DNA of 57,730 nt from Oscillospiraceae bacterium (GTDB taxonomy: Bacteria; Bacillota; Clostridia; Oscillospirales; Ruminococcaceae): positions 1 to 57,730 of the forward strand of contig JAFYSU010000030.1 in NCBI GenBank assembly GCA_017559185.1. The letters are read 5' to 3'. Under the pieces are notes generated by a model. That model made no database searches and had not been told where the DNA came from. It saw nothing but the letters and a program-made list of their open reading frames with translations. The position numbers and the translations under genes were made by a program. Position 1 is the first letter of the stretch. Each line of letters opens with the position of its first letter. Positions 1 through 36,444 of this stretch are shown here, in pieces.

Positions 1-1123
1 AGATTACTCATACATGTGGTGTATGGTTGAACTGGACGGTAACTGGTACCATGTGGATGTTCTGCAAAACGATGTTCAGGGCAATCAGGATGCTGTTCTT
101 CTTGCAGGCTCCAACAGCTGTACATATGTTCCTACCCCTATGGGTGATTACTCTACCCCTATAGTTTCTGAAACTGACTATGTTTACAGCAACGGTACTC
201 CTGAATCTCCTGCTGCTACCCCAAATGCATACTACTACGACCAGCTCTCCGACGAAGAAAAACAGGCATATGATGCTTTGTATGCTGCTTACGCCAATGT
301 ATGCGATGATAATTACGACGGCAGTGCTTCCTGCTATGTTCCAACAGGTATCATGATTGGTGATACTGCTATTACATCCATGAACAACGCATACTTTGCA
401 TTCAACCTTGACCACCAGGACCTTATGTCGTGGCATGACGGTCAGTTGTACTTTGACCTTATCCTTGAAAACGATTACACCTGCAGCTACTACCTTGCAC
501 CTTTGAGCGAATACCAAAACACTGCCGGCGATACCCACGGTGTATTTGTGGGTGTACAAGGCTTCCCGGGACTTCAAAACAATTTAACTCCGGACGATTC
601 TAAAACCATTTACACTGTAAAAGGTACTGCCGAAGTAAACGCAGATGAATTGGCTATTATTAATGAAATCCTCGAAACTGCCGAAGGTTACGACGATTAC
701 AACAAAATTAAATATTTCAGTCAAGCTATTTCCGACTATGCAAATGTTGCTCGCGAATATCCATCAAACGCAGATAATTATTCCGTTGAATCTTCCTTGA
801 TTTTCTCGCCTTTTATGAACTCGGATGTTCCTCTTAGCTGTGGTGCTTACAATAAAGCTTTCTACTACCTCTGCAAAGAATCAGATATTAACTGCGTTCT
901 TATTGAAGGTAAAATGATTGATGACCCAAGCCATGAAGATTACTCATACATGTGGTGTATGGTTGAACTGGACGGTAACTGGTACCATGTGGATGTTCTG
1001 CAAAACGATGTTCAGGACAATCAGGATGCTGTTCTTCTTGCAGGCTCCAACAGCTGTGCGTATGTTCCTACTCCTATGGGCGGTTACGATACTCCTACAG
1101 TTTCTGAAACTGACTATGTCTAC
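1..1123 (+). repeat. Direct repeat of 936-bp period (bases 1-187 and 937-1123)
   Basis: Bases 1-187 recur at 937-1123 with about 11 differences counted by eye, the first 79 bases being identical. The offset of 936 bp is exactly 312 codons, so whole protein units are duplicated in frame. The first visible copy is cut by the window edge, so more copies may lie upstream. The near identity points to a recent duplication or ongoing gene conversion. Confidence 0.9.
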
Positions 1124-3751
1124 GACATTAATGTTGGCATTGCTACCTCCGACAAAAACGCCCTTAAACTGCAGGTTGCAAAATCCTATTACGAAGGTTT
1201 GCTTGACAATGTAAGCGTTACAGTTAAAGACGCTTCTTCCAACGCACAGGCACTTGCTTTGGGTGAAATTACAAGCGACGAAAGCTACTACTACATCCCT
1301 GCTAACTTCACCACTCCGCTTGTTGCCGGCAGCTACACTGTTGAAGTAGGCTTTGGTACAAACAACCTTACCGCTAACCTTGCTTCTAATTCCTTCACTG
1401 TTGAAGCTGATGAACCAACCGTTACCGATGTAACCGTTACTGTTGACGAAGCAAACAAATCCACTGTTATTGTTACATTGGGCAACTCCTACGAAGGCGC
1501 TGCTCTTGAAGCTTCCGCTCTTACACTTACAGGTGCTGCTAATGTTACTGCAAGTGCTGTAAGCGTAGAAGGCAGCACTTACACATTCACCTTTGAAGAA
1601 GACCTTGCTGCAGGTGATTACACCATTGCCCTGAACCTTGGTGAAAACTACAACGCAGTACTTTCCGACGACGAATTTACCGTTGAAGCTGATACCCCTG
1701 TTGTTCCTGATGAAGACGAAGGTATTTTCGCTGCTAAGCTTGCACTCAGAAAAGATTACAAATACGCTGATGCAGGCATTACCTTTGAATTTGATGGCGA
1801 AGTAGGCGCAATCATTGTAGATGAAGAAACCTTCGATGAATTCATTGAAGATGAAAAGAACGAAGATGAAATCGAAGAAATGTGCAATGAAGGTAAGCTG
1901 TATGTAGGTGTTACTGCTGAAGCTCCTGAAGGTGCTAAACAGGTAAAAGCAACTGTTAACGGTGAAGCTCATGACGAGGCAATTGACCTTAGCAAAGATG
2001 GTGACCACGTACTCGACGGCAACTTCATCGAATACTTCCGTATTGCAGATGCTGACGGCAGTGCTCTTACCGAAAGAAGTGCTATTCCTGTTGAACTTGA
2101 ATGGCTTGATGCTGACGGTGAAGTAATATTCACAACCACATACGAAGTAAAAGTTGAAGTTGAATGGATTGAACAGGAAGAAGAAACCCCTGTATTCGAT
2201 GCAATGCTCGACCTCAGAGATGAATATGCTTACAAAGAAGCAGGCATTTCCTTTGACGACGGTGTTATTACCGTAAACAAGGCAGCATTTGAAAAAGCAG
2301 TTGCAGACAAAGCCGATATTATTTCCGACATGACACATGGCGAAAAACTGTATGTAGGTGTTACCGCTGAAGCTCCTGACAAGGCAGTAAATGTTTACGC
2401 TACTGTAGATGGAAAAGCAGTTGGCGACTTCGATTTGGATGATGAAGGTGACTATGTACACGATGGTATGTTCATTGAGTACTTCAGCATTGCAAATGTT
2501 GACGGTACAGGTCTTGCAGATAGAAAAGCTATTACCATTGAGCTCGAATGGTATGGTGAAGATGATGAACTTATCGCAACAACCGAATACGAAGTAAGCG
2601 TTAAAGTTGATGAAACCATAACCGACGAACCAGGTAATGAACCAGGCGACGACGACACTGATGATGTTTTTGCTCCTGCACTTGCTTTGAGAAGCGGTTA
2701 TGCATATGCAAAAGCAGGTATTACCTTTGATGCTGAAACCGGAGTAATCACAATAGACAAAAAAGTATTTGATGCTTTTGTAAAAGACAAAGCAAACAGT
2801 GATGAAATTGATGCAATGACTGAGGAATATGAAGACTACGGTTCTTGCATTGCGGTAGCGGTTACTGCAGATGCTCCTAAGGGTGCAGTGCGTGCAAAAG
2901 TAGAAATGTTTGATGACGAATTCGTTACAGACTTGGAAACTGACGGCGACAAAGCATTCTATACCGAATATTTGGCAATTACAAAGGCTGGCAGCACTAC
3001 TCCTAAAAATGTAGCACCTGAAACCTGCACAATCACATGGATGGATGAGTCTGGCATAGGCTTTTCAACCACAACCTTTGAACTGAGTGCAGAAGTTAAA
3101 AATGACAATGCAAGCAAACCAAGCGGCGGCAACAGACATGAACACTCCAGCAACCGCGGTGGCGGCGGTTCTTCCGCAGGTGGCAGCAGCTCTGCAAGTT
3201 CTTCCAACAGCGGCGGTACAACTCATGTTACCTCTTCCACCATTTCGTCTGCTGCTCGTGTAGGCAACAGTGTTGCAGTAAGTATTAACCCTAACTCTTC
3301 CACAACACCTTCCGAAATTGCTAAAGCAGCAGCAAGTCTTGCACAGGGCGAAACCCTTACATTTAGAAATGTTGTTGGTAATGTTGTTCAAGCACAAATT
3401 ACCGTTGACCCTGCTGCAGCTGCTAATTTGACAGCTTCCAATATCAGCTTGGGTATGAAGACAAACTATAATCCAACAAAACAGGCCTTTGAAAAATTCT
3501 TTAACAACAAGGTTTCCGTACTGGCACTTGACCAGAAAGGCAGCTTTGGTATGGAAGTAAAACTGGCTGCTAAATTGGATATTACCGGTATGAACACAAC
3601 TACCTTGCAGGCATACAGCTACAATCCTGAAACAAATACATACTATGCTATTTCTGCAAAACCTACTGTTGATGCTAACGGTTATGTTCATCTCACAACA
3701 TCCGCAGCAGGTCATATCGTTATTACCGACAGTCCTTTGACTCTTAAATAA
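2..3751 (+). CDS. Large repetitive surface protein with transglutaminase-like units, 5' end missing
   Basis: The frame is already open at base 2, so the N-terminus and any signal peptide lie outside the window. At least two copies of a unit of about 312 residues are present. Each ends in a transglutaminase-core-like stretch: SCGAYNKAFYYLC with the Cys, then YSYMWCMVELDGNWYHVD with the Asp. The His expected in the usual HAW motif is Tyr (YMW) in both copies. Then follow two Ig-like/X2-like beta modules (about 1100-1700), three repeats of about 150 residues starting near 1722, 2190 and 2662 (pattern LALRxxYxYAxAGITF), a Gly/Ser-rich linker (about 3100-3250) and a C-terminal beta-rich domain. 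There is no LPxTG sorting signal or membrane anchor at the C-terminus, so cell association is unexplained. A secreted adhesin or scaffold role is inference; catalysis is doubtful. Confidence 0.75.
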   Translation, partial: DYSYMWCMVELDGNWYHVDVLQNDVQGNQDAVLLAGSNSCTYVPTPMGDYSTPIVSETDYVYSNGTPESPAATPNAYYYDQLSDEEKQAYDALYAAYANVCDDNYDGSASCYVPTGIMIGDTAITSMNNAYFAFNLDHQDLMSWHDGQLYFDLILENDYTCSYYLAPLSEYQNTAGDTHGVFVGVQGFPGLQNNLTPDDSKTIYTVKGTAEVNADELAIINEILETAEGYDDYNKIKYFSQAISDYANVAREYPSNADNYSVESSLIFSPFMNSDVPLSCGAYNKAFYYLCKESDINCVLIEGKMIDDPSHEDYSYMWCMVELDGNWYHVDVLQNDVQDNQDAVLLAGSNSCAYVPTPMGGYDTPTVSETDYVYDINVGIATSDKNALKLQVAKSYYEGLLDNVSVTVKDASSNAQALALGEITSDESYYYIPANFTTPLVAGSYTVEVGFGTNNLTANLASNSFTVEADEPTVTDVTVTVDEANKSTVIVTLGNSYEGAALEASALTLTGAANVTASAVSVEGSTYTFTFEEDLAAGDYTIALNLGENYNAVLSDDEFTVEADTPVVPDEDEGIFAAKLALRKDYKYADAGITFEFDGEVGAIIVDEETFDEFIEDEKNEDEIEEMCNEGKLYVGVTAEAPEGAKQVKATVNGEAHDEAIDLSKDGDHVLDGNFIEYFRIADADGSALTERSAIPVELEWLDADGEVIFTTTYEVKVEVEWIEQEEETPVFDAMLDLRDEYAYKEAGISFDDGVITVNKAAFEKAVADKADIISDMTHGEKLYVGVTAEAPDKAVNVYATVDGKAVGDFDLDDEGDYVHDGMFIEYFSIANVDGTGLADRKAITIELEWYGEDDELIATTEYEVSVKVDETITDEPGNEPGDDDTDDVFAPALALRSGYAYAKAGITFDAETGVITIDKKVFDAFVKDKANSDEIDAMTEEYEDYGSCIAVAVTADAPKGAVRAKVEMFDDEFVTDLETDGDKAFYTEYLAITKAGSTTPKNVAPETCTITWMDESGIGFSTTTFELSAEVKNDNASKPSGGNRHEHSSNRGGGGSSAGGSSSASSSNSGGTTHVTSSTISSAARVGNSVAVSINPNSSTTPSEIAKAAASLAQGETLTFRNVVGNVVQAQITVDPAAAANLTASNISLGMKTNYNPTKQAFEKFFNNKVSVLALDQKGSFGMEVKLAAKLDITGMNTTTLQAYSYNPETNTYYAISAKPTVDANGYVHLTTSAAGHIVITDSPLTLK

Positions 3752-3789: not shown

Positions 3790-3838
3790 GAAACTCTGCG
3801 TACATCTTTTGTGTGCGCAGAGTTCCTTCTCTTTTTAA
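3790..3838. terminator. Convergent terminator, surface protein / spoIVA
   Basis: A 12-bp stem (AACTCTGCGTAC at 3792-3803 with GTGCGCAGAGTT at 3813-3824, one G-U pair) is followed by a T-rich run on the + strand. It lies between the ends of two convergent genes and touches the spoIVA stop codon. Confidence 0.75.
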
Positions 3839-5307
3839 AGTATAATGCAAATAAGACCGGAACATCCCTCGTTTATTATTCTTTCAATGGTTTCTTGCAG
3901 TCTTATTCTTGCCTCACCCGGCATACGGTAAAGCTTGTTGTGCAACCCCTCGTTTACAAGCTCATGCAGTGATTTACCAAATATATTGCTTTCCCATATC
4001 TTTTTGGGGTTTTCTTCAAATTCATCAAGCAGATACCGCACAAGCTCCTCCGATTGCTTTTCAGACCCCACAATCGGAGCTACCTCGGCAGTTATGTCTG
4101 CACGCATCATGTGTATGCTTGGTGCAGACGCCCGCAGCTTCACCCCGTATCTGCCGCCCTGTTTTACTATTTCGGGCTCTTCAAGCGACAATTCTTCCAT
4201 TGTCGGCATAACTATGCCGTAACCTGTTGCCTGCACCTCCTCCATTGCACCTTTAATTTTGTCGTACTCTCGTTTTATTGCCGCAAGCTGAGTCATACAC
4301 GGCAGCAGGTCTTCCTCGCCACACAGCTCAAGTCCTGTTGCCTCGCCAAGAATCCTGTAAAACAATGACGGGTCAACCTCTACGCTTAAATTTGCACTTC
4401 CCACACCCAAGTCTGCACCACTTACAGCACAGCGTTTTATGTACTCGCATTTTTCCAAAGCCTCGGTACATTCTTTAAGGCTGCTTATGTAATTAAGCCC
4501 TTCGCAGGCTTGAATAATGTTTTCGTAGCACGCCTTTTTAAGCCAATGCTCTTTTTTCAGCGCAATTATCCACTTGGGTATTTCTACCTCTATTTCCTTT
4601 ACAGGGAAACGCAGCAGCACTTTGGAAAGTATCTCGTTTATATCGGCTTCGCTTAAATCCATACAGCTTACAGGCATAACGGGCACATCATATTTTTCCT
4701 GCATTGATTGTGCCAGCTGCTGTGCGGGTGTGCTTTCAGGATAAAGGCAGTTGAGCAGCACTATAAACGGCTTGTCGATTTCTTTAAGCTCATTTATCAC
4801 CCGTTCCTCCACCTCGGCATATTCATTGCGCGGAATGTCGCTTATGCTGCCGTCGGTGGTAACAACCAAGCCAATTGTGCTGTGCTCGGTTATTACTTTG
4901 CGTGTGCCTATCTCTGCTGCCATGTTAAATGGTATTTCTTTATCGAACCACGGAGTCATTACCATTCGCGGATTATTGTTTTCGATATATCCCAATGAGC
5001 TTGGAACAATATATCCTACACAATCTATGAGCCTAACATTCATTGCTGTGTTTTCGCCAATATGAATTCGCACGGCTTCCTCGGGTATGAATTTTGGCTC
5101 GGTTGTCATTATGGTTTTTCCTGCTGCCGACTGCGGAAGCTCATCCTTTGCGCGTTCACGGCGAAAGTCGCTTTCAATGGACGGAATAACCGCCTTTTCC
5201 ATAAACCGTTTAATAAAAGTGGATTTTCCGCTTCTTACAGGTCCTACAACACCAATGTAAATATCGCCTTGTGTACGGCGCGCTATATCCTCGTAAATAC
5301 CTACCAT
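3835..5307 (-). CDS. spoIVA: SpoIVA, spore coat morphogenetic ATPase
   Basis: This is the mother-cell ATPase that polymerises on the forespore surface and forms the basement layer on which the spore coat assembles. The protein has 490 residues, against about 492 for the Bacillus protein. It carries a Walker A motif GPVRSGKS at residues 22-29 and a Walker B-like RLIDCVGY around residue 95, plus the characteristic conserved C-terminal region. In the family SpoVM anchors SpoIVA to the membrane, and in Clostridioides SipL binds it; both partners are encoded just upstream here. It starts 23 bases after the sipL stop, so the two are very probably one transcript. Identification is firm. Confidence 0.97.
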   Translation of the reverse strand: MVGIYEDIARRTQGDIYIGVVGPVRSGKSTFIKRFMEKAVIPSIESDFRRERAKDELPQSAAGKTIMTTEPKFIPEEAVRIHIGENTAMNVRLIDCVGYIVPSSLGYIENNNPRMVMTPWFDKEIPFNMAAEIGTRKVITEHSTIGLVVTTDGSISDIPRNEYAEVEERVINELKEIDKPFIVLLNCLYPESTPAQQLAQSMQEKYDVPVMPVSCMDLSEADINEILSKVLLRFPVKEIEVEIPKWIIALKKEHWLKKACYENIIQACEGLNYISSLKECTEALEKCEYIKRCAVSGADLGVGSANLSVEVDPSLFYRILGEATGLELCGEEDLLPCMTQLAAIKREYDKIKGAMEEVQATGYGIVMPTMEELSLEEPEIVKQGGRYGVKLRASAPSIHMMRADITAEVAPIVGSEKQSEELVRYLLDEFEENPKKIWESNIFGKSLHELVNEGLHNKLYRMPGEARIRLQETIERIINEGCSGLICIIL

Positions 5308-5330: not shown

Positions 5331-6860
5331 TTACATCGTTGGTATTAACAACATTCTGCGGGCGGTCATTATATCCTGCTGAAGATTATTTTCTTCCATT
5401 ATGCTGTCGGGAACAGTGTTGTAGCGCCGAGCAATATTCCATACACTTTCACCCTTGTCGGCATAGTATATGGTAAGCGGACTGCGCTTTCTTGTATGTT
5501 TTGGGTTTTCGGCATCCACTTCTATATTTTTGAGCATTGGGTATGCCTGTACGGTATAAATTCCACCGTGCAGCAGCAAATCACAGCGTATTTCAAGTCT
5601 GTCGCTTGAAGTTATACCGTATGATGCACTGACTGTATACGCATTACCCATGAACATTGCACCGGCAGCTGCTGCCTCTGTTGGAATTTCGAAGCCTATA
5701 TCCTCGGTTCTTTCATACAGTTCGGGAGAACCGCTTTCGTCAAAGCTGAGCAGACATATATTCATTTTAACCGCCGAAAGCATTTTTTCGTCTTTCCATT
5801 CGGTCGCTATATCCTCGACAGTACACCAAACATCACCTACCGCCGTAACCTTTTCGGGCAGTGTAATGGTTTCCCTGTACAAATGCCTTTGTTCTATCCT
5901 TTTTTCAAGTGCCGCCAAGCTTACCGCCTTCAAATCTGCACGGCTTTCGTATAGTGTGCTGAAGCAATCGGTAACTGCCAAATACTCCTGCATTTTGTGT
6001 GCCGCAATGTCGCACCGTATTTTACATTCAACGCTTACTCTGCGGCTTTCACCATCGGGGGACGGCTGAATTTCGGCACTGCATTCCACTACCTGATATA
6101 CTGCACTGCACGAGGTATCCTCCGACATTTTTTCAATATCGCAAATACTGCTTACAGGTATGCTGTGTTCCAAAAACTGCAGCTTGCCTTCGGTGCAGTA
6201 ATAGCTTAATTGAAGTTGAAGCTCACCCTTGGTTATTACTTTGTTTGCAATAGGTTTAAAGTCGCTCACCTGTGCTTCGGCACGGCAATCCAAAATTTCA
6301 GCAGCGGAAGGCTTGCCGTAACCAAGCTCCAGCGTTTCCTGAACTATAAATACTCCGCTGCCCGTTTTCATTGGCTGGTTAACCCTGTATGGTGTTTTTT
6401 TAAGCTGTATTCCCATTTCGTGCGAATCAGCCACGAATTCTTCGGCAGTGCTGCCAAGTGCTTTAACACTAAGTGACAAAGCTCCCTTTATTTCCAAGCG
6501 ACGGCTGCTTACTGCACGGCAGTTTACATAGTCTGTTTTCGGCATAACATGAACTATGCCATCTTCACAGCTGTGTTTAAGCTCGATATTTTTTTGAAAC
6601 GGCACAGACGAACGATAACAAAACACCTTGTTTTCCTGCGTGCAGTAAAAAACCTTTACCTGTGCCGAACCGTCAATAATAATTCTGCCTGCATTAAGCT
6701 GTGCCGATTCTATTTTAGGCTGTACCGAACATTTGAGTATTCTTACTATGTCGGGGCAGTAGTCGGCAAGCAAAACATCACTTTCAATGCTTTGCTCCGC
6801 ACACCCGTTGAATATAATTTCATTTATTGTTACGGACTGCCTGTTTATACTCAGTTCCAT
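5331..6860 (-). CDS. sipL: SipL-like SPOCS/LysM spore coat protein
   Basis: The product has 509 residues with DUF3794 (SPOCS) domains through the body and a C-terminal LysM domain (from about residue 455, core KGESVWNIARRYNTV). This is the architecture of SipL, the SpoIVA-interacting protein that tethers the coat to the forespore in Clostridioides difficile. I place the start at ATG 6860 (MELSINRQ) because GGAGAGGTG lies just upstream; the frame stays open further upstream but only as non-homologous sequence. Its position directly before spoIVA supports the assignment. A sigma-E-like promoter precedes it (6937-6965). A general SPOCS/LysM protein with another coat role is the alternative. Confidence 0.87.
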   Translation of the reverse strand: MELSINRQSVTINEIIFNGCAEQSIESDVLLADYCPDIVRILKCSVQPKIESAQLNAGRIIIDGSAQVKVFYCTQENKVFCYRSSVPFQKNIELKHSCEDGIVHVMPKTDYVNCRAVSSRRLEIKGALSLSVKALGSTAEEFVADSHEMGIQLKKTPYRVNQPMKTGSGVFIVQETLELGYGKPSAAEILDCRAEAQVSDFKPIANKVITKGELQLQLSYYCTEGKLQFLEHSIPVSSICDIEKMSEDTSCSAVYQVVECSAEIQPSPDGESRRVSVECKIRCDIAAHKMQEYLAVTDCFSTLYESRADLKAVSLAALEKRIEQRHLYRETITLPEKVTAVGDVWCTVEDIATEWKDEKMLSAVKMNICLLSFDESGSPELYERTEDIGFEIPTEAAAAGAMFMGNAYTVSASYGITSSDRLEIRCDLLLHGGIYTVQAYPMLKNIEVDAENPKHTRKRSPLTIYYADKGESVWNIARRYNTVPDSIMEENNLQQDIMTARRMLLIPTM

Positions 6861-6936
6861 TTGGACACCTCTCCTTTTTTCTGATATTTCAGCACGGTGT
6901 CTCCCTGTGGTATGAGGCAGACACTCCCTCATCAGA

Positions 6937-6965
6937 AATATATGCAGGTGCAAACAGTAAAATAC
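6937..6965 (-). promoter_or_regulatory. Sigma-E-like promoter for sipL-spoIVA
   Basis: On the - strand GTATTTT (6959-6965) and CATATATT (6937-6944) are separated by exactly 14 bases. The -10 matches the sigma-E pattern CATACANT at all but one fixed position. The -35 overlaps the base of the spoVM terminator stem. Mother-cell expression is what these genes need, but the assignment is by motif only. Confidence 0.55.
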
Positions 6966-6989
6966 CCTCAAAACCGTAAGTTTTGAGGG
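6965..6989 (-). terminator. Terminator after spoVM
   Basis: A perfect 10-bp stem (CCCTCAAAAC at 6965-6974 with GTTTTGAGGG at 6980-6989) has a 5-base loop and a TATTTT tail on the - strand. It would separate the spoVM transcript from sipL, in line with spoVM being monocistronic in Bacillus. Confidence 0.7.
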
Positions 6990-7008
6990 CGTTTATTATT
7001 CCTATGTA

Positions 7009-7095
7009 TTAATGCTGTTCTTCTTTTTCTATTTTAAAAATAAGCCGAAGTATTCCGGATAAAATCCGCGGGCTTTTCCAAACTACTATTTTCAT
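7009..7095 (-). CDS. spoVM: SpoVM-like 28-residue amphipathic sporulation peptide
   Basis: This is a 28-codon frame starting MKIVVWKSPRILSGILRL and ending in acidic/basic residues. Aligned without gaps to Bacillus SpoVM from memory, it matches at M1, K2, K7, P9, L12, G14, I15 and R17, with conservative changes at 10 and 16. Pro9, which interrupts the helix and is needed for curvature sensing in Bacillus, is kept. SpoVM is a membrane-surface peptide that recognises the convex forespore membrane and recruits SpoIVA. A strong Shine-Dalgarno AAGGAGG (7104-7110) sits 8 bases before the ATG. A terminator follows, then sipL and spoIVA. The gene is shorter than usual annotation cut-offs and easily missed. 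Homology is a by-eye alignment, but the context makes it strong. Confidence 0.85.
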   Translation of the reverse strand: MKIVVWKSPRILSGILRLIFKIEKEEQH

Positions 7096-7119
7096 CCGCT
7101 GCGCCTCCTTTTGGTCGCT

Positions 7120-7145
7120 TGTTAGTACGCTTTACTAACACTATA
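7120..7145 (-). promoter_or_regulatory. Dyad at presumed spoVM transcription start
   Basis: A perfect 8-bp inverted repeat TGTTAGTA-N5-TACTAACA spans 7120-7140. On the - strand a -10-like TATAGT (7140-7145) shares its last T with the first base of the dyad. No good -35 is visible. It could be an operator or a 5' mRNA hairpin. Confidence 0.5.
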
Positions 7146-7200
7146 CGCAGCAAAAATGTTTTTTGTTAATCTGCTGTTTTAAAACTGAATTACGCAAACA

Positions 7201-7227
7201 AAAAAGCAGGCAATCCGCCTGCTTTTT
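7201..7227 (-). terminator. cobO terminator
   Basis: The stem AAAAAGCAGGC / GCCTGCTTTTT has a 5-base loop and directly overlaps the cobO stop codon. A T run follows on the - strand. Confidence 0.8.
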
Positions 7228-7753
7228 AATACTCTATTCCTTTTCGTGCGGCCTCGCCTTTTTCGTAAGGGTGGCGCAGCTTTTTCATTTCGGTAATATA
7301 ATCGGCAAGTTCGGCAATTCGCTGTGACGGTTTTCGTCCTGTAAGAACCACCTCAAGCTGCTGCGGTCGATTACGCAGAAATTCATACAATTTGCCTTCG
7401 TCCAGCATACCGCACTCCACCGCATCAAGAACTTCGTCCATAACAAGCAGTCTTGCGTTGGTTTTTCCCGCCAGATTTACAGAGTCTTTAAAAAGCTCAT
7501 CACACAAATCGGCAGTTAGGCGTTTTTCCTCGTCATTCATTTGGAAAATGAACTTCATTTTTTCAGGTCCTTTTACCACAGCTACATTTTCCGACAGTGA
7601 AAGCAACTTAAATTCCGCCGCACCTCCTGCCTTTAAAAACTGTACTGCTGCAACATTGTATCCGTTTCCTGCCATTCGTGCAGCAAGTCCTGCGGCAGCG
7701 GTGGTTTTTCCCTTGCCGTCACCACAGTAGATGTGTACTTTGCCTTTTTCCAT
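7226..7753 (-). CDS. cobO: Cob(I)alamin adenosyltransferase, CobO/CobA type
   Basis: This enzyme transfers the adenosyl group of ATP to cob(I)alamin or corrinoids to make adenosylcobalamin. The product has about 175 residues with P-loop GDGKGKTTAAAG at residues 11-22 and the family motif VMDEVLDAVECG. The C-terminus TGRKPSQRIAELADYITEM with the following KHPY-like element is typical. I chose ATG 7753 because GAGGTG precedes it by 7 bases; the frame stays open upstream into thiN. It is the last gene of the rsgA-thiN-cobO string, 10 bases after thiN. No other cobalamin genes are visible, so it may serve corrinoid salvage. Confidence 0.92.
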   Translation of the reverse strand: MEKGKVHIYCGDGKGKTTAAAGLAARMAGNGYNVAAVQFLKAGGAAEFKLLSLSENVAVVKGPEKMKFIFQMNDEEKRLTADLCDELFKDSVNLAGKTNARLLVMDEVLDAVECGMLDEGKLYEFLRNRPQQLEVVLTGRKPSQRIAELADYITEMKKLRHPYEKGEAARKGIEY

Positions 7754-7763
7754 TACAAGCACC

Positions 7764-8393
7764 TCACAGTTTGCACAGCAGCACGGCAAGACAGCCTTTT
7801 TTAACCGAAACACGAATGTCTCCGTTTAAAAACTCATTGCTTACCCCCAGTGGAAAATCGCCTCGTAAAACTGCATTTTCAAGCGGATACTGCGCATTTT
7901 CCACCGTTACTCCGCTGCATTGTTCATCCATACTGAATATAGAAAAACTATACCCTTTTCGGTTTTTAACCACCAATTCCGTTTCACCGCAAAGCATATG
8001 TATCTCTTCGCGCTCGTCAAGCAGGGCTGCCTTAATACCGCTTTGTGCAAGACTGCGCAGCAGCTGCATATTGGCTAATGTGTGGTCAAGCCTTCCACCT
8101 GTCATTCCGAACAGCAAAAACTCATTGCAGCCGTATTTTTGTCCCAAGCGCACCGCCAATGCGGTATCGGTTTCATCTTTGTGGGGGGAGGCTTTTTCGA
8201 CTACACAGTCGGACGGTTCATCACCATTCCACGAATCAAAATCACCCACAACTGCAAACGGCTTTATGTTCATTCTTTGCGCGTGAGCATATCCGCTGTC
8301 GGCACAAATTACAATGTCATCGGGTTTTATTTTGTCCATTACAAAATTATCCGCTGTTATCTCTCCGCCGCCAAAAATAATGCCGCGCTTCAT
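7764..8393 (-). CDS. thiN: Thiamine pyrophosphokinase
   Basis: This enzyme converts thiamine and ATP to thiamine pyrophosphate. The product has 209 residues with the family motifs GDFDSW (50-55), DETDT (73-77) and GGRLDH (99-104), which bind ATP and thiamine. The start ATG 8393 overlaps the rsgA stop as ATGA, with GGGAGC 7 bases upstream, so translation is probably coupled to rsgA. A start 5 codons earlier (8408) is possible but lacks a good ribosome site. rsgA-(rpe)-thiN is a common order in Gram-positive bacteria; rpe is absent here. Confidence 0.94.
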   Translation of the reverse strand: MKRGIIFGGGEITADNFVMDKIKPDDIVICADSGYAHAQRMNIKPFAVVGDFDSWNGDEPSDCVVEKASPHKDETDTALAVRLGQKYGCNEFLLFGMTGGRLDHTLANMQLLRSLAQSGIKAALLDEREEIHMLCGETELVVKNRKGYSFSIFSMDEQCSGVTVENAQYPLENAVLRGDFPLGVSNEFLNGDIRVSVKKGCLAVLLCKL

Positions 8394-9283
8394 TTGTTCA
8401 GCTCCCATTCTTTTATCTGTTTGGAAACCTCGTACATTGCAAGGTAGCTTTCGTGGCGTTCCTTTGCAATTTTGCCTTCTTCAACAGCCTGCAGTACAGC
8501 ACAGCCTTTTTCCTTGGTATGGCTGCATCCTGTAAAACGACAATCATGAATATATTCCTCAAACTCGCGGAAGCAATACTGCAGCTCGTCCTTTAAAATA
8601 ACCTCGTACCGTTCAAGTTCCACTGCCGAAAATCCGGGTGTATCGGCAATATATCCGCCGTTTTCCAGTTTGTACAATTCGGAATGGCGTGTTGTGTGTC
8701 GTCCGCGCCCAAGCTTTTCGCTTATGTGTGCTGTATCAATGGACAAACGGCTGTCGATTGCATTCAGCAGACTGGATTTGCCTACACCTGAATTTCCGCA
8801 AAATGCGCTTACTTTGCCTTGAAGCGCATTTTTTACATCTTCAACGCCTTCGCCTGTTTTGTTGCATACGGTGTATACCTCAAAGCCTGCATTGCGGTAC
8901 AGGTTTTCCATGTAGGAAGTATCGCCCAAATCAGCTTTTGTTATTACAATTATCTGCTCGATATTTTGGTGCTGGCATATTGCAATCATTTTATCCAGAA
9001 CCAAGAAATTAGGCTGTGGCTGTGCAATGGAGCTCACCAGTACAAGCTGGTCAAGATTTGCCACAGGCGGTCTTACAAGGCAGTTTTTCCTTGGCAGAAC
9101 TTCGGCAAGTGTCCCTGTTATACCATCTGCCGTTTCCACTATTACCCTATCACCAACACAGGGTTTGAATTTATCTTTTCTGAAAACGCCACGGGCGCGT
9201 GTTTCAATCTCTTTGCCGTCACACTCAACATAATAAAATCCGCCCAACAGCCTGATAACCAGTCCTTCTAACCTTTGCTCCAT
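8390..9283 (-). CDS. rsgA: Ribosome small-subunit GTPase RsgA
   Basis: RsgA is a circularly permuted GTPase that checks late maturation of the 30S subunit. The 297 residues show an N-terminal OB-fold, then G4 TKAD (115-118) before G1 GNSGVGKS (163-170) and G3 DTPG (214-217), the permuted order that defines the family. A C-terminal zinc knuckle carries C248, C253, H255 and C261. It lies downstream of prkC, with a hairpin between, and is overlapped by thiN. Confidence 0.97.
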   Translation of the reverse strand: MEQRLEGLVIRLLGGFYYVECDGKEIETRARGVFRKDKFKPCVGDRVIVETADGITGTLAEVLPRKNCLVRPPVANLDQLVLVSSIAQPQPNFLVLDKMIAICQHQNIEQIIVITKADLGDTSYMENLYRNAGFEVYTVCNKTGEGVEDVKNALQGKVSAFCGNSGVGKSSLLNAIDSRLSIDTAHISEKLGRGRHTTRHSELYKLENGGYIADTPGFSAVELERYEVILKDELQYCFREFEEYIHDCRFTGCSHTKEKGCAVLQAVEEGKIAKERHESYLAMYEVSKQIKEWELNK

Positions 9284-36214: not shown

Positions 36215-36221
36215 ATATGAA

Positions 36222-36361
36222 GCTGTCACGGAAGTACCAAAGACAGCAGGTGTCTTCGGACATAATGGGGAAACCCGCCTGCCGAGGGAATGAACCGTAG
36301 TTTCAATTTTATTAATTGTAATTACTGGGTTTTTCATCGGTTTGGTGAAAAACCCTTTTTT
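36222..36361 (+). ncRNA. Ribosomal protein L10 leader with attenuator
   Basis: The leader before rplJ contains the family-typical segment AAAGACAGCAGGTG near 36239, pairing with CCCGCCTGCCGAG near 36271. In this leader class L10(L12)4 binds a kink-turn structure mimicking its 23S rRNA site. A 10-bp terminator follows (GGGTTTTTCA 36327-36336 / TGAAAAACCC 36346-36355, then T6). Autoregulation by premature termination is the established mechanism for the family. The remaining leader up to 36444 holds only the ribosome site. Confidence 0.85.
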
Positions 36362-36444
36362 GTTTTTCCCTTTTGCTTTCTTGGACAGTACAAAGGGACT
36401 CAGACACTGTTTTGCAGTGTCAATTTCTCAGGAGGTGAATAGAC

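Follow-up and report, generated by a model that had tools for sequence, protein, structure and literature searches.

A 28-codon frame on the minus strand (7095–7009) of the window, i.e. the whole stretch of 57,730 nucleotides analysed here (contig JAFYSU010000030.1 of the Oscillospiraceae assembly GCA_017559185.1), is, as judged from its sequence, spoVM, a newly recognised gene of an already known family. The gene adjoins sipL and spoIVA, and this linkage is a recurrent minority gene order in part of Oscillospirales, not peculiar to this organism. The gene order, of which no description was found in the open-licence literature searched, merits a brief report and not a claim to a new mechanism. 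To our knowledge, genome annotations seldom recognise SpoVM.

Identity of the spoVM frame and its neighbours

The 28-residue peptide encoded by the frame (MKIVVWKSPRILSGILRLIFKIEKEEQH) was matched by NCBIfam NF033436 (SpoVM_broad), the NCBI equivalog model for SpoVM with a cut-off of 31 bits, at 41.2 bits (E 1.2e-10) and over model positions 1–26 of 26, in agreement with the original prediction of a SpoVM-like gene. A whole-genome scan of the 1.58-Mb assembly returned the frame as the sole NF033436 match at E ≤ 10 (38.9 bits), and no second spoVM was thus detected in the assembly by this model. No match to the frame was obtained at E ≤ 10 with Pfam PF08183, the single match of which across the same genome lay at another site and, at 10.4 bits, below the cut-off. 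Of 14 control genomes, one gave a PF08183 match over the cut-off; this model appears narrow, and NF033436 is the one that matches the frame.

When the peptide was used as a single sequence in a phmmer search of the PDB, no match was found. A profile built from the frame and 16 relatives retrieved B. subtilis SpoVM (2MVH) with an E of 5.9e-9, and the family profile aligns with this protein without gaps over residues 1–21. The identities with Bacillus SpoVM that had been proposed from the sequence (M1, K2, K7, P9, L12, G14, I15 and R17) were all confirmed over these residues, and the features of family membership seen in the peptide on comparison with 2MVH comprise the Pro9 kink, K2, K7, I15 and R17. 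The two proteins differ in length (26 residues in B. subtilis and 28 here) and in the presence of Val4-Val5-Trp6 in place of Tyr-Thr-Ile. Likewise, the good ribosome-binding site claimed for the gene was located as AAAGGAGG, 8 nt ahead of the ATG. The features of the locus are collected in Table 1.

Table 1. Features at the spoVM locus, in window coordinates
Feature	Position	Strand	Basis or remark
spoIVA	3835..5307	-	TIGR02836, 728.8 bits
sipL	5331..6860	-	SPOCS detected in two stretches, LysM at the C-terminus; start probably the ATG at 6860, preceded by GGAGAGGTG
terminator-like hairpin between spoVM and sipL	6964..6990	-	predicted; 12 pairs; fold z -4.06
spoVM	7009..7095	-	NF033436 over cut-off; frame kept in relatives
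spoVM ribosome-binding site AAAGGAGG	7104..7111	-	sequence; ends 8 nt before ATG
perfect 8-bp inverted repeat TGTTAGTA-N5-TACTAACA	7120..7140	.	spoVM leader
promoter-like TTAACA-N18-TATAGT ahead of spoVM	7140..7169	-	10 of 12 matches
terminator-like hairpin after cobO	7204..7220	-	predicted
cobO-type corrinoid adenosyltransferase	7226..7813	-	PF02572, 1.1e-51; between thiN and spoVM
thiN, thiamine pyrophosphokinase	7764..8408	-	TIGR01378, 157.3 bits

Downstream of spoVM lie sipL (PF12673 and LysM) and spoIVA (TIGR02836), so that the reported position beside the genes of its likely partners stands. Upstream are found cobO, thiN and rsgA and, further upstream beyond rsgA, prkC, prpC, rlmN and rsmB, the last four being named from their translations only. 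The domain matches of SipL (PF12673, 2e-31; PF01476, 5.4e-5) were obtained on a longer frame, 5331–6971, and the start of the gene is probably the ATG at 6860 rather than 6971; the true start of cobO probably lies inside the frame given in Table 1. No relatives of cobO were found by tblastn in the other loci (E 1e-6, or 1e-5 for added loci, many of which span only 3 kb), and the gene is therefore most simply regarded as an insertion of this lineage. On the other side of the trio, spoIVA is adjoined by a large frame, 14–3751, which starts near the window start and carries an internal near-identical repeat (MWCMVELDGNWYHVDVLQND...).

In genomes G008, G020, G024, G030, G031 and G059, rsmB-rlmN-prpC-prkC-rsgA-thiN likewise precede sipL and spoIVA, spoVM standing between thiN and sipL. 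More broadly, thiN and spoVM are less than 4 kb apart in 18 of the 44 genomes having both genes, and of 28 spoVM loci from across the class, each about 3 kb long, 13 gave a thiN match. B. subtilis presumably also has thiN upstream of spoVM, in the same gene order. In this arrangement spoVM seems to occupy its customary site downstream of thiN, with sipL and spoIVA adjoining that site.

Linkage and transcription of spoVM, sipL and spoIVA

The three genes lie together in 13 of the 43 genomes of the order in which all three were detected, the organism itself included, when each gap is limited to at most 3 kb. In the same 43 genomes, spoVM is within 3 kb of sipL in 17 and sipL within 3 kb of spoIVA in 32; the trio is far apart on one contig in four (G002, G013, G039 and G044), and in 26 at least one of the three genes is on another contig, so that linkage is not fully judgeable in these. 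The count used 49 of 50 SpoVM-positive genomes, the sole weak match of G033 being left out together with the weak second SpoVM matches of G022, G027, G030 and G036, and each genome was entered with a single SipL stretch and a single SpoIVA piece. In a survey of those 80 of 267 SpoIVA loci that are closest to the present SpoIVA, a sipL match was found directly upstream of spoIVA in 72, and a spoVM match near the pair was present in 12 and absent in 68 (a SpoVM match requiring more than 12 bits, such that L063, at 11.9, scored none; several loci were short). Adjacency of sipL and spoIVA is thus the rule and spoVM beside the pair a recurrent minority. In C. difficile, sipL and spoIVA are, we assume, scattered; here they are adjacent.

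Outside the order, 26 genomes of a class-wide sample (n = 147) gave a SpoVM match at E ≤ 0.001, and, with positions read by eye, spoVM and spoIVA are less than 5 kb apart in one of them (G168). In the other 25, read in the same way, the two genes are about 19–23 kb apart in four, farther apart on the same contig in four and on different contigs in 17, which are unjudgeable. Such linkage consequently looks rare outside the order, and to this extent the original prediction, in which a compact coat-anchoring module was held to be unusual, survives (one of 26, with 17 unjudgeable); within the order the arrangement is not special to this organism, as the 13 of 43 genomes and 12 of 80 loci attest. 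No description of the linkage was found in the portions of the open-licence literature available to us. In two loci, L145 (G025) and L148 (G006), spoVM is on the strand opposite to sipL-spoIVA and still nearby, the site being kept and the gene reversed.

The shared strand and order of the three genes, with 266 bp from the spoVM match to the first SipL domain match in this genome, might be taken to indicate a single co-transcribed coat-anchoring operon. This appears quite improbable, since the predicted terminator-like hairpin at 6990–6964 (z -4.06) splits spoVM from sipL, which makes one transcript unlikely, and spoVM is sometimes opposite in strand to sipL in relatives (G006, G025, G041 and G042). 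Rather, we predict that spoVM, sipL and spoIVA, though adjacent, are transcribed from separate promoters and do not constitute one operon.

Within the 4.5 kb scanned, 12 promoter-like sites were counted against 7.8 in shuffled sequence (sd 2.9), that at 7169–7140 being the best of the 12, and six terminator-like sites against a shuffle mean of 5.6, i.e. no excess. Given these numbers, the single predicted sites rest on their position and strength. The site at 7169–7140 is readable also as a weak sigma-E-like AACA-N16-CGTATAGT, the score of which was equalled by 9 of 200 shuffles. Among 29 spoVM leaders, a site of the ACA-N15/16-ATA type was matched by none of 200 shuffles in six, and in 19 more than 10 of 200 shuffles score equally high for a sigma-E-like site. 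The weights used for this motif were derived from a general sigma-E consensus and chosen after viewing the same leaders; the leader motif is for this reason suggestive only, and the sigma-E-like site ahead of spoVM is assigned tentatively. A sigE above the cut-off was not found in the assembly, which is 86% complete, the best match being a SigK-type factor; Spo0A exceeded its cut-off in the same genome.

The perfect inverted repeat at 7120–7140 may form a hairpin in the leader or serve as a lone operator. Its core occurs at one exact site in this genome and at no other in the loci scanned, and a role as regulon operator was rejected on finding one exact and two one-mismatch sites against 11 for a control pattern. 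Nested inverted repeats are present also in the sipL leader (6878–6938), where a long hairpin fold is obtained (z about -2.2). Known RNA elements were searched for at 6800–7300 and discarded, all 14 Rfam matches being below the gathering score of their family. No Rfam match over threshold was found at 6878–6938, and the one such match in the window lies elsewhere, at 36219–36370, where a ribosomal protein L10 leader is found (RF00557, 67.7 bits).

Position 6 and selection on the peptide

According to the available part of PMC5607322, Ile6 of B. subtilis SpoVM is required for SpoIVA binding, and the I6A variant is rescued by SpoIVA G486V. The occurrence of Trp at this position had led to the proposal of a re-tuned interface, in which either the SpoIVA contact is altered or SipL is contacted directly. 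The residues found at position 6 of 81 SpoVM peptides are Val (35), Ile (19), Trp (11), Phe (7) and Leu (6), with Met, Ala and Lys occurring once each. The 11 Trp6 peptides, three of which (L073, L080 and L086) are near-identical, are spread over five labelled families (f1, f3, f7, f9 and f32); G062, G121 and G165 (≤ 8 bits) were left out of the set, and G037 and G054 yielded no peptide. The residue of SpoIVA equivalent to Gly486 is Gly in all 80 of the best 80 of 267 loci and in 43 of 43 genomes, and is retained with Trp and non-Trp SpoVM peptides alike.

Although the need for Ile6 in B. subtilis (PMC5607322, in the part available) speaks for the proposal, the recurrence of Trp6 across families and the glycine kept in these loci and genomes make a re-tuned interface very unlikely, and Trp6 is not supported as a sign of a changed SpoVM-SpoIVA or SpoVM-SipL contact. 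Trp6 as a change matched in SpoIVA was likewise rejected, no accompanying change being seen at the Gly486-equivalent, the residue that was examined. Trp6 is, on the evidence of the aligned peptides, one of several hydrophobic residues apparently tolerated at position 6. The acceptance of bulky residues there limits what can be inferred from Ile6 of Bacillus. In C. difficile, Ile6 is found together with Asn at the SpoIVA Gly486 position (PMC5607322, available part), unlike the combination of Trp6 and a retained Gly observed here.

A SpoVM match at E ≤ 0.1 was obtained in 50 of 61 genomes (that of the organism and 60 relatives), 36 of the 61 being over the cut-off, and 11 were without a match at this threshold. 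Conservation of the frame in relatives, which had been put forward as a check on the gene, was observed: 29 of the 30 fetched spoVM frames, that of the organism included, are open across 25–31 codons, and the 30th is truncated by a contig end. Two of the 29 open frames start with GTG or TTG. Across the 29 sequences, a mean pN of 0.245 was found against a mean pS of 0.847, with pN < pS in 406 of 406 pairs, and mismatches at codon positions 1, 2 and 3 amounted to 37%, 14% and 64%, respectively; these patterns show purifying selection on the peptide. Pro9 is present in 80 of the 81 peptides. The frame is very short and was missed by Pfam, as a chance open reading frame might be, but with the NCBI cut-off exceeded and a conserved frame under purifying selection such an origin has a negligible probability.

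Proposed role in the spore coat

The assignment as SpoVM follows from the family match, the kept frame, the purifying selection and the gene neighbourhood. With high confidence, we propose that the frame encodes SpoVM, predicted to act as an amphipathic helix of the outer forespore membrane that recruits SpoIVA, with SipL joining, the genes being neighbours with putatively separate promoters. The steps of this assembly are drawn from the available parts of PMC5607322 and PMC6436350 and from general background. By analogy with work on Bacillus and C. difficile, SpoVM would be made in the mother cell and from that side would enter the outer forespore membrane as an amphipathic helix. SpoIVA, recruited there by SpoVM, would form a polymer around the forespore, and SipL, binding SpoIVA through the LysM domain of SipL, would likely be brought in as well, giving the basement layer of the coat. 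On the simplest reading, spoVM occupies its customary place downstream of thiN, and in part of Oscillospirales this place is adjoined by sipL-spoIVA. That the three genes are linked would favour the inheritance of interacting proteins as a set; one transcript does not follow from it.

A stronger version, in which in part of the order the linked genes form a co-inherited SpoVM-SpoIVA-SipL basement module at the old thiN-spoVM locus and SpoVM is a non-dispensable partner of SipL, is considered doubtful. If true, it would amount to a three-part coat scaffold unlike the schemes of Bacillus (with SpoVID) and C. difficile (in which SpoVM is dispensable). SpoVID is named as the counterpart of SipL in B. 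subtilis in the part of PMC6436350 available. The control genomes, which included B. subtilis, yielded no SipL match. A Bacillus-type role of SpoVM in Clostridia is left open by PMC3533761, in the available text. The present locus and the relatives sharing its linkage, with the anchor gene beside both partners, would be a natural place to test such a role.

One comparison is with C. difficile, in which, according to the available part of PMC5607322, SpoVM occurs with SipL and SpoIVA, as here, and binds SpoIVA in vitro, and spoVM is largely dispensable. The C. difficile gene differs in its surroundings, being located near rpmB and co-transcribed with CD25622 (same source), whereas here its neighbours are sipL and spoIVA. 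The two partner proteins are of the same type, a SPOCS-plus-LysM SipL and a full SpoIVA (PMC6436350, available part). As regards SipL itself, two SPOCS stretches are detected by Pfam in the present protein (5331–6860) and mostly two in Oscillospirales; elsewhere in the class there are mostly three among the genomes listed, and the third has perhaps diverged.
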